Shown here piece by piece: positions 2,706-12,689 of a DNA stretch of 47,743 nucleotides; the stretch's first letter is position 1, and each line of letters opens with the position of its first letter. The stretch covers positions 1 through 47,743 of the IMG/VR virus record IMGVR_UViG_3300045996_002455, one strand, 5' to 3'. The position numbers were made by a program, and so were the translations under genes. The notes beneath the pieces are model-generated. The model did no database searches. It saw nothing but the letters and a program-made list of their open reading frames with translations, and had not been told where the DNA came from. This stretch comes from a virus.

Positions 2706-3016
2706 AACTCACCTTCCTTTCGAAGCTTCTCTTCATGCGCCGCGAGGCGCCTCAGTCGCTGAATCGCCGACAACAGCACCGGCTTGTCGCCCGGCCAGCC
2801 AACAACGCCCGGCAGCATCGCCAGCAGCGCGGCCACCTCGCCCGGCAGAAACGTCGTCGACAGCCGCTTGCGCGTGCGCCTGTATGGCGCCGAGTCGTGG
2901 TGCGCGAGCTCGCCCCGGTGCAGCATCCGCATAACTTTCTGCCGCGAGCAGTGCAGCGCGTTCGCCGCCTGGCTCACCGTCATCATCCGCCCAGGCTCAA
3001 GCTCCACAAACAACAT
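2702..3016 (-). CDS. Helix-turn-helix DNA-binding protein (excisionase/MerR-like fold)
   Basis: This 104-aa protein carries a winged HTH at about residues 11-45 (MMTVSQAANALHCSRQKVMR, then a wing with HDSAPYRRTRKRLS). This is the arrangement of phage excisionases and MerR-like regulators that read short inverted repeats. The ATG at 3016 is preceded by GGGAGG. It heads the operon 3016-851, and GGGTACCC palindromes lie at 3029 and 3097 just upstream, so it may bind this motif and autoregulate. That link is inference only. Confidence 0.65.
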   Translation of the reverse strand: MLFVELEPGRMMTVSQAANALHCSRQKVMRMLHRGELAHHDSAPYRRTRKRLSTTFLPGEVAALLAMLPGVVGWPGDKPVLLSAIQRLRRLAAHEEKLRKEGEL

Positions 3017-3028
3017 GTCCGCCTCCCG

Positions 3029-3104
3029 GGGTACCCGCGCACATTTGGCGCAGGGCGTTATGCCGCACAGTGTCATCGAAGCGCACATGTAAGCGGGGGT
3101 ACCC
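3029..3104. promoter_or_regulatory. Divergent regulatory region with two GGGTACCC palindromes
   Basis: Perfect GGGTACCC palindromes lie at 3029-3036 and 3097-3104, between the minus gene starting at 3016 and the plus gene starting at 3164. The first sits immediately upstream of the 3016 ribosome site. The same 8-mer recurs upstream of other early genes. I could not assign clear -35/-10 boxes here. Confidence 0.55.
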
Positions 3105-3163
3105 AAATGATTTCGTAACGGCACGCACGATGCATTGACGCGTCGCAGAAAGAAGAGGTGAGC

Positions 3164-3361
3164 ATGCCCGAGAGAGCCGTTCATGCGCCGACGCTGCTGC
3201 AAGGATGGGACGCCCTGTCCCTGGCCCTGAGAGAGCCTTCCACGACCGTGTTCCGCCGAAGCCTGCTGCGAGGCACCATCCAGGCCGTCCCCCTGGAAGA
3301 AGCCTGCAGGCTGGCCCGCGAGGGGCACGAGTCGCGACTGTTCGTGGAGCTCCCGTCATGA
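3164..3361 (+). CDS. Small hypothetical protein, 65 aa
   Basis: Plus-strand gene transcribed divergently from the HTH operon. ATG 3164 has a GAGGTG ribosome site 8 nt upstream; an in-frame GTG at 3158 is less likely. The product begins MPERAVHAPTLLQGWDALS. Its stop overlaps the next small frame as ATGA. Function unknown. Confidence 0.55.
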   Translation: MPERAVHAPTLLQGWDALSLALREPSTTVFRRSLLRGTIQAVPLEEACRLAREGHESRLFVELPS

Positions 3362-9832: not shown

Positions 9833-10167
9833 TGCCGCTGGTGGACCAGCAGGTGGGCAGCAAGGCGCTCGAGCCGGGCACTGTGCTCGACGCCCTCAAT
9901 CGCGAGGTGGTGCCCGTGGTGCGACGCCTGCGCGCGCTGGTGAACGCGCAGCTGACCTCGGCAGCGGTGACCATCGGCGACGGCCTGGCCACGGTGTTCG
10001 CTGTCGAGAACCCGTTCGGCACGCGCGACGTGGTGGTGGCCGTCTACGACACCGGGACCTACCTGGACGTGCCGGCGACGGTCGAGCGCACGACGGCGGA
10101 CCTGCTGACCATCACGTTCGGCGTGGCCCCTGCGGCGGACGCTGTCCGGGTGCTCATCCGCCCATGA
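9832..10167 (+). CDS. Beta-rich virion-associated protein, 111 aa
   Basis: GTG 9832 overlaps the upstream TAG. After an N-terminal helix (EVVPVVRRLRALVNAQLTSA) comes a run of strands typical of small phage structural domains: TIGDGLATVFAVENPFGTRD, VVVAVYDTGTYLDVPATV and a DLLTITFGVAPAADAVRVLI end. The stop overlaps the terminase ATG. Confidence 0.55.
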   Translation: MPLVDQQVGSKALEPGTVLDALNREVVPVVRRLRALVNAQLTSAAVTIGDGLATVFAVENPFGTRDVVVAVYDTGTYLDVPATVERTTADLLTITFGVAPAADAVRVLIRP

Positions 10168-12689
10168 CCGAGGCGCTGTACCAGCCGTCGGTGTGGCAGC
10201 AGGAGTTCCACGCGCTCCGTGTGCACGAGGCGCTGGGCGCCGGCTCCGCGGGCGTCGGCAAGTCGCTCTGTCTGACCATGGACCCCATGGAGCAGGTCAT
10301 CGTCGAGCACCAGCGGTGCGCTGACCGTGCGCACCCGTTCCACCAGCGCTGGGGGCACTCGACAGGCTGGGCGCTCCACCTGCGCCGCGAGCTGGGCGAG
10401 CTCGAGCAGACCATCGCGCGCAGCCAGATTCTCTACCCCGGTGTCGACCCCAAGGCGCACTGGAACAGCACCAAGAACCTGTGGACGTTTTCGAGCGGCT
10501 TCAAAGTGCAATTCGGGCACTGCAACGGCGCGGAGGACCATGCCAAGTACCTCTCGAACGCGTACTGCCTAGCGGAGGGCCAGCGCATCGTGATGGCGGA
10601 CGGGTCGCTGCGCGCCATCGAGGACGTGGCAGCCGGCGAGCTGGTGCTGACGCTCGAGGGGCCGAAGCGCGTGCTCGCTACCTGGGACTCTGGCGTTCAG
10701 CACTGCTCCGCCTTGGACGTCCGCCACCCGACAACCGGCGGTCTGCTTGGAACGCAGCTACAGCCGACCACGCATCCGGTTCTTGTGACTTCCAGCGACG
10801 TACCGCCTCTCTCAGAGTCGCCGGGCACACGCCGTAGCGAGGGGCCAGCTCCTTCGCATGCATGGTACTGGCAAGACTACGAATCTCTTCTCGATGGGGC
10901 TCGAGTGAGCCGGGCGAAACGCGTTTCGACAATAGATGCGGAAAGTTGTTTCGTAGGGTCTGATGGTGCACGTCGAGCAGTTTCGCAGCTTCCAGCGTTG
11001 ACCGTCCGGCTAGTGCTTCACGAACAGTCTGTTCGTCGAGCCGCTCTTCGCCGTGCCACAGGATGCGATGCCGACCGAGAATGCTCGCAATCGTGTTGCG
11101 GCTCATGCCTTCCAGGCGGGCCGCGTCCAGAATCGTCAGGCTCGTGTTCTGGGCGTAAGCTCGCAGGCGTTCGACGAGGGCCCGGTCGTTCACCGGACAC
11201 GACCGCTTGTGATGCAGCAGGTGCTCCCGCTGCGACGGGAACAGCCATAGGTTCGACGGGTCGTTGTTCGACGGGTCGTTGTCCTCGTGATGCACGACCT
11301 CCAGCCGGGACAGGAAGCGGCCCAAGACAGCCTCGGCGACCAGGCGGTGCTGGAGCACGTAGCCGTGCCGGTTTGCGCCTGGGTGCTCTGGGGAATGCTC
11401 CATCACGTAGCCGGGCGACTTCGGAAACGAGCTACCCACACTTCTACTCGGAAGAGGACCGACCTCTGACAGAGGGCGTCTGTATTGCGACTGGACTGAT
11501 GCGCTATGCGGGGCTGCGTCGGACATTTGACCTCACCGTGGAAGATGCCAACCACTATATTGGTGAGTTCGGCATGGTGTCAAGCCAGACCCACATCGCC
11601 TTCGACGAGCTGACCACCTTCAGCAAGGCGCAGTACGACGGTGTCACCTCCCGCCTGCGCAGCGCTGACCCGGTCCTTCGCCAGCTTCTCAAGGTCCGGA
11701 GCATGTCCAACCCGGGCGTCTCACCGGGCGCTGACCCGCACTGGGTCCGCAAGATGTTCGTGGACCCGCACCCGGAAGGCAGGAAGCTGCTCGCGCGCAC
11801 CATCAAGCGCACGGACGGCACGACGTTCACGCGCACGCGCATCTACCTGCCCGGCAGGCTGACAGACAACCCCAACAAGCAGTTCGCAGCGGACTACGAG
11901 GAGACGCTCAGCGCGCTCCCCGTGCACATCCGCAAGGCTTACCGCGACGGCGACTGGTACTTCCGGCCCGGCAGCTTCTTCGGCGAGGACTGGGACAAGA
12001 CCCTGCACGTCGTCAAGCCGTTCAAGATTCCGAGCGACTGGCCTGTCTTCCGCGCGATGGACTGGGGTTTCAAGAGCCCCGGCAACGTCGGCTGGTACGC
12101 GTTCGACCCTGACGGCGACCTGTACAAAATCTGCGAGCTGAAGTTCCAGGGGCAGACCGACGAGCAGGTGGCCGAACAAATCAAGCACGAGGAGGAGCGT
12201 CTCGGCCTGTGGGACAAGGTCGGCAAGTGCTCGCGCATCACCGGTCCAGCGGACACGCAGCTCTGGGAGGAGCGCGGCGACTCGGGCAAGCGCAAGGTCG
12301 ACGTCTTCCGCGACAAGGGCATCATGTGGGTCCAGGCAGACAAGAAGAGCCGCGTGGCGAACGCTGGCCGTCTTATCAAGCGCCTGCGCGACCACAATAA
12401 CGGCACGCAGAATCCCGGCCTGATGGTCTTCTCGACCTGCAAGTACACCATCACGACGCTGCCGCAGGTGGACACCGACCCGGACGACCCGGAGCAGCCG
12501 CTCAAGGGCGGAGATGACCACGCTGTGGACGAAACCATGTATGCTGCGGCGTACGCCTCGCATGGCCCCTCACGCGTACATGTCAGGCGAGAGAAGGAAG
12601 ACCGGGACGACGACGACGATGACGACGCGTCGGACCGGGAAGCGCTACGCGGCCAGGGCCGCTACGGATACGGGTCACCGCACCTGTGA
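10164..12689 (+). CDS. Terminase large subunit interrupted by an intein
   Basis: 841-aa precursor of the ATPase-nuclease that packages DNA into the prohead. A Q-motif-like WQQEF leads to Walker A AGSAGVGKS (residues 26-34). The Walker B element (THIAFDELTTF) begins at residue 476, right after an intein of residues 135-475 (Cys135 to Gln475). Removing the intein leaves a normal 500-aa terminase with a continuous NAYTHIAFDEL junction. The C-terminal nuclease part follows (MDWGFKSPGNVGWYAFD near residue 632) and ends in an Asp-rich tail. Residues about 212-420 look like non-protein sequence because that DNA encodes an HNH nuclease on the other strand. ATG 10164 overlaps the previous stop (ATGA). 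Confidence 0.9.
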   Translation: MTEALYQPSVWQQEFHALRVHEALGAGSAGVGKSLCLTMDPMEQVIVEHQRCADRAHPFHQRWGHSTGWALHLRRELGELEQTIARSQILYPGVDPKAHWNSTKNLWTFSSGFKVQFGHCNGAEDHAKYLSNAYCLAEGQRIVMADGSLRAIEDVAAGELVLTLEGPKRVLATWDSGVQHCSALDVRHPTTGGLLGTQLQPTTHPVLVTSSDVPPLSESPGTRRSEGPAPSHAWYWQDYESLLDGARVSRAKRVSTIDAESCFVGSDGARRAVSQLPALTVRLVLHEQSVRRAALRRATGCDADRECSQSCCGSCLPGGPRPESSGSCSGRKLAGVRRGPGRSPDTTACDAAGAPAATGTAIGSTGRCSTGRCPRDARPPAGTGSGPRQPRRPGGAGARSRAGLRLGALGNAPSRSRATSETSYPHFYSEEDRPLTEGVCIATGLMRYAGLRRTFDLTVEDANHYIGEFGMVSSQTHIAFDELTTFSKAQYDGVTSRLRSADPVLRQLLKVRSMSNPGVSPGADPHWVRKMFVDPHPEGRKLLARTIKRTDGTTFTRTRIYLPGRLTDNPNKQFAADYEETLSALPVHIRKAYRDGDWYFRPGSFFGEDWDKTLHVVKPFKIPSDWPVFRAMDWGFKSPGNVGWYAFDPDGDLYKICELKFQGQTDEQVAEQIKHEEERLGLWDKVGKCSRITGPADTQLWEERGDSGKRKVDVFRDKGIMWVQADKKSRVANAGRLIKRLRDHNNGTQNPGLMVFSTCKYTITTLPQVDTDPDDPEQPLKGGDDHAVDETMYAAAYASHGPSRVHVRREKEDRDDDDDDDASDREALRGQGRYGYGSPHL
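10566..11588 (+). other. Intein (Hint protein-splicing element) in the terminase gene
   Basis: The intein spans 341 codons. N-terminal block A is CLAEGQRIVMADGSLRAIED with the nucleophile Cys at position 1; block B is TTHPVLVT with its conserved His (precursor residue 204). C-terminal block F is RRTFDLTVEDANHYIGEF, and block G is GMVSSQ followed by Thr as the first C-extein residue. The usual His-Asn pair at the C-end is replaced by Ser-Gln; terminal Gln is known in some active inteins. Between the two halves about 200 residues are of abnormal composition because of the antisense nuclease gene. Confidence 0.85.
10678..11526 (-). CDS. HNH homing endonuclease encoded antisense inside the intein
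   Basis: 282-aa protein on the opposite strand to the terminase. It has the HNH_3 layout: SPGYVMEHSPEHPGANRHGY (about 37-56), QHRLVAEAVLGRFL, then the catalytic VVHHEDNDPSNNDPSNLWLF (77-96; His79, His80, Asn92). Three tandem helix-turn-helix modules follow (TILDAARLEGMSRNTIASIL; STLEAAKLLDVHHQTLRNNF; HAKELAPRYGVCPATLREAV), well suited to reading a long homing site. ATG 11526 has a GAGG ribosome site; GTG 11439 is the alternative. The last 35-40 residues run antisense to Hint block A-B and look unstructured, so the original gene probably ended near 10790. Confidence 0.85.
   Translation of the reverse strand: MSDAAPHSASVQSQYRRPLSEVGPLPSRSVGSSFPKSPGYVMEHSPEHPGANRHGYVLQHRLVAEAVLGRFLSRLEVVHHEDNDPSNNDPSNLWLFPSQREHLLHHKRSCPVNDRALVERLRAYAQNTSLTILDAARLEGMSRNTIASILGRHRILWHGEERLDEQTVREALAGRSTLEAAKLLDVHHQTLRNNFPHLLSKRVSPGSLEPHREEIRSLASTMHAKELAPRYGVCPATLREAVRRWKSQEPDAWSAVAAFQADRRLSGGGRPRRSSAERQSPR

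Follow-up and report, generated by a model that had tools for sequence, protein, structure and literature searches.

The IMG/VR virus record IMGVR_UViG_3300045996_002455, analysed here over its whole length as a window of 47,743 bases (positions 1 to 47,743), encodes a terminase large subunit (TerL) whose open reading frame (ORF) is interrupted by a Hint protein-splicing domain. The two halves of this domain are separated by about 200 codons that show no conservation as protein when translated in the sense frame, and the opposite strand of this linker carries a gene for an HNH endonuclease with helix-turn-helix (HTH) modules. A preliminary description, made from the sequence alone, had placed the terminase frame, the intein and the antisense ORF at the coordinates given below, and these proved right. 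The features are the following (slashes mark intein boundaries; pLDDT is the predicted local distance difference test score of the AlphaFold models).

10164–12689, plus strand: TerL ORF, 841 codons without a stop.
10164–10565, plus strand: TerL N-extein, up to ...LSNAY, colinear with phage TerLs (PHROG TerL, 1.8e-19 for the precursor).
10566–11588, plus strand: intein of 341 aa, C1 ... SSQ/T, directly before Walker B; excision restores TerL, and Hint is matched by profile and by fold.
10566–10805, plus strand: Hint-N, residues 1–80, with Cys1 and block B His70 (PF05203, 3e-6; UvsX split inteins, 8e-8; pLDDT 92–98 at residues 1–70).
10806–11432, plus strand: sense linker of about 209 codons, open and not protein-like (no curated Pfam match; pLDDT mostly below 50; null-level identity).
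11433–11588, plus strand: Hint-C (YPHFYSEED...FDLTVEDANHYIGEFGMVSSQ), conserved with the related loci L032, L037 and L039 (family hidden Markov model, E=5e-15; pLDDT 81–95).
11589–12689, plus strand: TerL C-extein (THIAFDELT...), with Walker B and the nuclease domain (PHROG_2 TerL, 9e-20).
10678–11526, minus strand: ORF for an HNH homing-type endonuclease of 282 aa, with an alternative GTG start at 11439 (HNH_3, 4.7e-8; phrog_20891, 8.7e-16).
11203–11418, minus strand: HNH core, residues 37–108, with the conserved His and Asn of the family intact in alignments with 7 phage HNH proteins and 15 relatives.
10783–11178, minus strand: three HTH modules (11062–11178, 10918–11031 and 10783–10887), from HTH_23 matches in three stretches and helices of the model, common to L037.
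10678–10805, both strands: double-coded stretch in which the C-terminal tail of the nuclease is antisense to Hint-N, from the coordinates of the two ORFs.
11554–11583, minus strand: near-consensus sigma-70 promoter-like sequence TTGACA-18-TATAGT (11 of 12 matches), directed towards the HNH gene and lying wholly inside Hint-C.
11530–11534, minus strand: Shine-Dalgarno-like GAGGT before the ATG at 11526.

When residues 135–475 are removed, TerL is colinear end to end, through NAY/THIAFDEL, with five intein-free homologues (from Roseobacter, Rhizobium and Arthrobacter phages and two other phage sequences), none of which aligns through the insert. The insert begins with CLAEGQRIVMADGS, which provides Cys1 of intein block A, and ends with FDLTVEDANHYIGEFGMVSSQ. 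Its Pfam match to Hom_end_hint (PF05203) covers residues 1–39 and lies below the curated cut-off; in tblastn searches, residues 1–80 are matched by the intein N-halves of T4-like UvsX. The block B histidine lies in PTTHPVLV, in a column nearly invariant among 16 relatives. Hint-C is weak on its own in general libraries (TIGR01443, E=0.12) and strong with the family model, of which the window itself is one training sequence. Blocks F and G are represented by FDLTVEDANHY and a +1 Thr, with a terminus of Ser-Gln, not His-Asn; most relatives end in HHN, NHN or NKN, with Ser, Thr or Cys at +1. Inteins ending in Gln are able to splice. The AlphaFold model of the sense intein is confident at residues 1–77 and again at residues 290–341, with pLDDT mostly below 50 between them, and Foldseek matched this model across both halves to the Mtu RecA mini-intein (TM-score, the template modelling score, 0.76 by target) and also to PI-SceI. 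The identification of the flanks as intein blocks in the preliminary description is thus borne out by both profile and fold. A group I or group II intron was considered and rejected, as the Rfam scan of 10100–12100 gave no intron match.

The antisense ORF combines an HNH motif with DNA-binding HTH modules, as had been proposed; its model has a mean pLDDT of 84, and the best match in the PDB is I-HmuI, at low coverage. Codon position 1 of the nuclease gene lies opposite position 1 of TerL, and position 2 of each opposite position 3 of the other. The tail of the nuclease had been expected to overlap Hint-N by 35–40 codons; the overlap is there, and since the Hint-N similarity reaches approximately residue 80, it amounts to about 42 codons.

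With an aligned set of HNH domains, 80 viral-contig loci were collected and oriented by their HNH. None of them entered the Hint model that revealed, in several of the loci, Hint halves encoded opposite the HNH and flanking it in a single frame; these frames, read through, are whole TerLs with inteins. The design was found in 17 of the 80 loci, with an identical frame relation in all of them, and second scans with the P-loop type of HNH added 33 contigs, of which about 29 are distinct and five of the distinct ones come from bacterial genome assemblies. Approximately 46 further distinct, often distant lineages (about 47 with the window) share the design among viral contigs, bacterial genomes and cultured phages, and the sense frame is one unbroken ORF in all accepted members. 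The cultured carriers include the Pectobacterium phages Koroua, Amona, Ymer, Abuela, Sabo, Taid and Pappous and the Dickeya phage Setonix; Koroua, Taid, Ymer and Setonix were read directly, and Amona, Abuela, Sabo and Pappous were recognised by whole-gene matches at 91–99.6% identity. In annotated records of Pectobacterium and Dickeya phages, the 754-aa precursor is labelled a hypothetical protein, and the paper on the Ymer genus (PMC11445585) mentions no intein. In Pseudoalteromonas phage PHS3 the HNH is annotated and TerL is cut to 391 aa, with the TerL frame open for about 708 codons through the intein.

The insertion site is the P-loop (G../C...HHN/SGKT) or, in the window, L032, L037 and L039, Walker B. 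The C-exteins are mostly those of TerL; L035 and L196 encode helicases, and L128, judged by eye, another P-loop ATPase. Pfam Intein_splicing alone matches 11 of 16 sense inteins. The TerL C-extein region of viral contig L032 also contains a second insert of about 157 aa (CVPYGLVRTPTGW...VSGN/S), which is mini-intein-like and lacks a nuclease, and one C-extein of the set has a match to Pfam Intein_splicing. Two further loci were not counted. In L206, from a Nitrospira metagenome-assembled genome (MAG), a methylase-like ORF is open over an antisense HNH (3001–3243) in the same frame relation, with no Hint match. In L259, from an Actinomycetes MAG, Hint halves lie opposite the HNH in a different frame relation, with stops in the trimmed region and a sense extein that itself resembles an HNH protein; this is possibly an independent case.

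In the window there is no sense stop over about 210 nuclease codons, where synonymous-codon or codon-order permutation predicts 3.5–5 (P=0.002–0.016), and none of 330 overlapping 210-codon stretches from the other genes of the window phage is open in this antisense frame. Sense stops are likewise absent from all accepted loci, for which synonymous shuffling of nuclease codons predicts 0.8–10.4; the per-locus probability of a stop-free sense frame (P0) ranges from 0.39 to <0.0005. Among the HNH loci of the first scan that lie outside such inteins, none of 63 is open in that frame, and a Hint-based scan of all 80 loci detected no antisense HNH flanked by Hint whose sense frame is broken. These counts favour the selection for an open sense frame that the preliminary description had suggested. 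A further idea, that the linker is tuned to hydrophilicity, was abandoned, as its uniform signal (20/20) disappears once the null is conditioned on the absence of stops (Z=-1.5).

Comparison of relatives indicates which strand codes for protein in the linker. Over the gene, Koroua and Taid show 8.6% divergence. Their linker differences fall 1, 4 and 14 times at positions 1, 2 and 3 of nuclease codons, which gives 5 nonsynonymous and 13 synonymous changes in the nuclease frame, as against 16 and 3 in the sense frame; in the C-extein, the sense frame shows 15 and 120. Across nine divergent pairs, linker identity is 43–69% in the HNH frame and 17–30% in the sense frame, the latter close to what conservation of the HNH would produce by itself, and the sense linker of the window shows 17–18% identity to its relatives, which is the null level. 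Sense-linker conservation beyond what the HNH forces is mostly nil, with z of about 2–2.7 in three of the nine pairs. Given the changes at nuclease wobble positions and the near-null sense identity, the linker is best read as DNA that codes for the nuclease, its sense reading being under no detected constraint other than to remain free of stops. Sense residues 212–420 had been described as looking unlike protein, which these comparisons support.

The promoter-like sequence of the window was equalled in none of 200 shuffles, with 0.2 promoter-like sites (at least 9 of 12 matches) expected in the region. Matches elsewhere reach 12 of 12 in L030 and L033 and 11 of 12 in L027, L028 and PHS3. Combined values for the first set (Fisher chi-square 100 on 34 degrees of freedom) and the second (P=0.008, with -10 elements repeatedly lying about 96 or 102 nt away from the end of the intein), like those for ribosome-binding sequences, are indicative only, because related loci are not independent. 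Shine-Dalgarno-like sequences precede 12 of 17 antisense starts, as against 23% expected. As the promoter-like and ribosome-binding-like sequences lie inside the intein, the whole unit fits between the splice junctions.

Empty sites are plentiful for the Koroua group: in about 149 relatives, the match to the Koroua TerL extends over the exteins and leaves the intein uncovered. For the window phage, no close relative was detected among viral contigs and no close relative of its TerL in GTDB genomes, and a DNA pattern for Walker-B TerL inteins gave 0 matches in viral contigs. Between Koroua and Taid, wobble divergence is 14/155 (9%) in the linker and 140/466 (30%) in the extein (P=3e-8). Koroua and Ymer form a mosaic, with differences in a tract at gene positions 376–1184, centred on the intein, and none at 1185–1993. 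Such patterns are what recent homing or gene conversion would leave.

We conclude that the element is very probably a mobile intein of a class in which the homing nuclease is a separate antisense gene and selection keeps the splicing frame readable. The TerL mRNA would be translated straight through, as the evidence strongly suggests, and the Hint domain would splice the precursor, so that selection would purge every sense-frame stop. The nuclease would be made from its own transcript and would cut the intein-less TerL gene at a conserved ATPase motif, whereupon repair would copy the intein into that gene; the orientation of the nuclease gene is irrelevant for homing, since repair of the double-strand break uses the DNA segment as a whole. 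Protein splicing is highly likely for the class as a whole and, given its Ser-Gln end, likely for the window intein; expression of the nuclease is quite probable, and homing fairly probable. In the preliminary description, an independent HNH gene had invaded a mini-intein in reverse. The antisense-nuclease intein stands; the arrangement is a recurrent one and no single accident, so that in most members the unit has probably been inherited or moved as a whole. TerLs colinear through the insert, flanks unlike Hint and a decayed HNH core would each have spoken against the proposal, and none was found.

Several observations weigh against this interpretation. The Ser-Gln/Thr end of the window intein is non-canonical, so this copy could be slow or dead, and its own mobility finds no support from any close relative. 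Promoter-like sites are convincing in some loci only, and the lower wobble divergence of the linker could come from constraint instead of homing. Sense residues 145–164 (10998–11057, plus strand) are modelled as strand-helix with pLDDT 80–95, although they are antisense to an HTH module. The first 17 loci were initially chosen by their open frame, a bias that the Hint-based scan and the second set lessen and do not fully remove.

The same non-canonical end, the origin of the window in a single metagenomic contig and the lack of a close relative would also fit an insert that no longer functions, whether in a recently disrupted terminase of a decaying phage or in an assembly chimera. This is hardly likely in view of a sense frame without stop or frameshift, an intact HNH core and an identical design in eight cultured Pectobacterium and Dickeya phages, in PHS3 and in many more lineages. 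We regard as most unlikely a split intein in a fractured gene, in which TerL-N with IntN and IntC with TerL-C, the latter from a second start near ATG 11499, would be made separately and joined by trans-splicing, with the nuclease between them and the frame open by chance. The closest Hint-N relatives found, the T4-like UvsX inteins, do come in two halves that flank a free-standing nuclease gene, but here the frame is open in all accepted lineages (P0 down to <0.0005), the N-half has no terminating stop, no Shine-Dalgarno sequence was seen by eye at 11499, and the conserved Hint-C element YPHFYSEEDRPLTEG... upstream of that ATG would be lost. It is extremely improbable that the sense insert encodes a genuine protein domain that has escaped recognition, with the antisense ORF as its by-product. 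The tail of that ORF does lie opposite conserved Hint-N, and residues 145–164 are modelled at high pLDDT, but the HNH and HTH profiles, the conserved catalytic residues, the substitutions at nuclease wobble positions in close relatives and the null-level identity of the sense linker contradict it.

The antisense-nuclease intein shares with canonical mobile inteins, such as PI-SceI and L049 with its same-strand HNH, the Hint fold, insertion at a conserved ATPase motif and a nuclease between Hint-N and Hint-C. Their nuclease forms part of the intein polypeptide itself, whereas the present one has its own gene, antisense to a linker that is not conserved as protein; an in-frame endonuclease domain was not found, and the window intein was not assigned to that class. 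Split inteins of T4-like UvsX and UvsW, the UvsX Hint-N being the closest relative found among named phages, likewise have the nuclease as its own gene between Hint halves, but their host gene lies in two ORFs with the nuclease on the same strand, in contrast to the unbroken host ORF and antisense nuclease described here, and that class was rejected too. In four T4-like loci (L012, L013, L016 and L108), the UvsX and UvsW genes are divided into an N and a C part that carry Hint halves, with a distinct nuclease gene in between, and some of the records annotate the pieces as several hypothetical proteins.

In phages ShiLan and Pacc40, an HNH gene lies hidden on the same strand, in another frame, within an insertion that leaves the host frame open (PMC11855218). 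The open host frame is shared with the present design, but those insertions have no detectable splicing domain, whereas the window HNH is antisense and inside a Hint intein, and membership in that type was rejected; our check of the Pacc40 insert placed its HNH on the plus strand. L206 is possibly the antisense counterpart of the ShiLan hidden HNH. Mycobacterium phage Pacc40 gp60 (L115) also contains an apparent ordinary large in-frame intein (CLARGSLVLTKGG...VVKN/C), seen by eye and from a weak Hint-N match. Nuclear group I introns such as Dsq.L2066 carry an antisense nuclease gene in a self-splicing element, with its own promoter expected (PMC9548176). They need no ORF on the other strand, because they act by RNA splicing in rDNA, whereas protein splicing forces two open frames on the antisense-nuclease intein. 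Free-standing phage HNH_3 endonucleases with HTH, and I-HmuI, have the nuclease family and HTH add-ons seen here but are not embedded antisense in an intein. No intein with an antisense nuclease is described in the open-access literature searched (bioRxiv and most subscription journals were outside the search), and the element apparently represents a recurrent, undescribed kind of mobile intein.

A single origin of the class was not favoured. In an HNH tree of 72 columns, in which most forks are unresolved, the antisense label is clustered without forming one clade and needs 7 changes, at least two of them forced by starred branches; moreover, the HTH modules precede the HNH in the P-loop group and follow it in the Walker-B group. 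At least two origins or nuclease replacements probably occurred. The shared frame relation would fit common descent or selection for the antisense frame of least mutual interference.

For annotation, the finding means that intein surveys confined to the host frame overlook nuclease genes, and that HNH-first annotation shortens terminases, as in PHS3. The cultured Pectobacterium and Pseudoalteromonas phages make the class testable now, and inteins that seemingly accommodate about 200 arbitrary residues where the nuclease lies would be useful in engineering. The class would show that splicing and mobility can be fully separated in the proteins even though both share a single DNA segment, and it offers a natural system of antisense overlapping genes in which the openness of the second frame has an evident selective cause. 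It is likely an old and widespread class in phage ATPases, in which one segment holds three overlapping programmes: one strand encodes the splicing protein, the other the nuclease together with its promoter, and the two proteins always stand in the antisense frame relation that sets position 2 against the wobble position, which may be the only one where both can persist.
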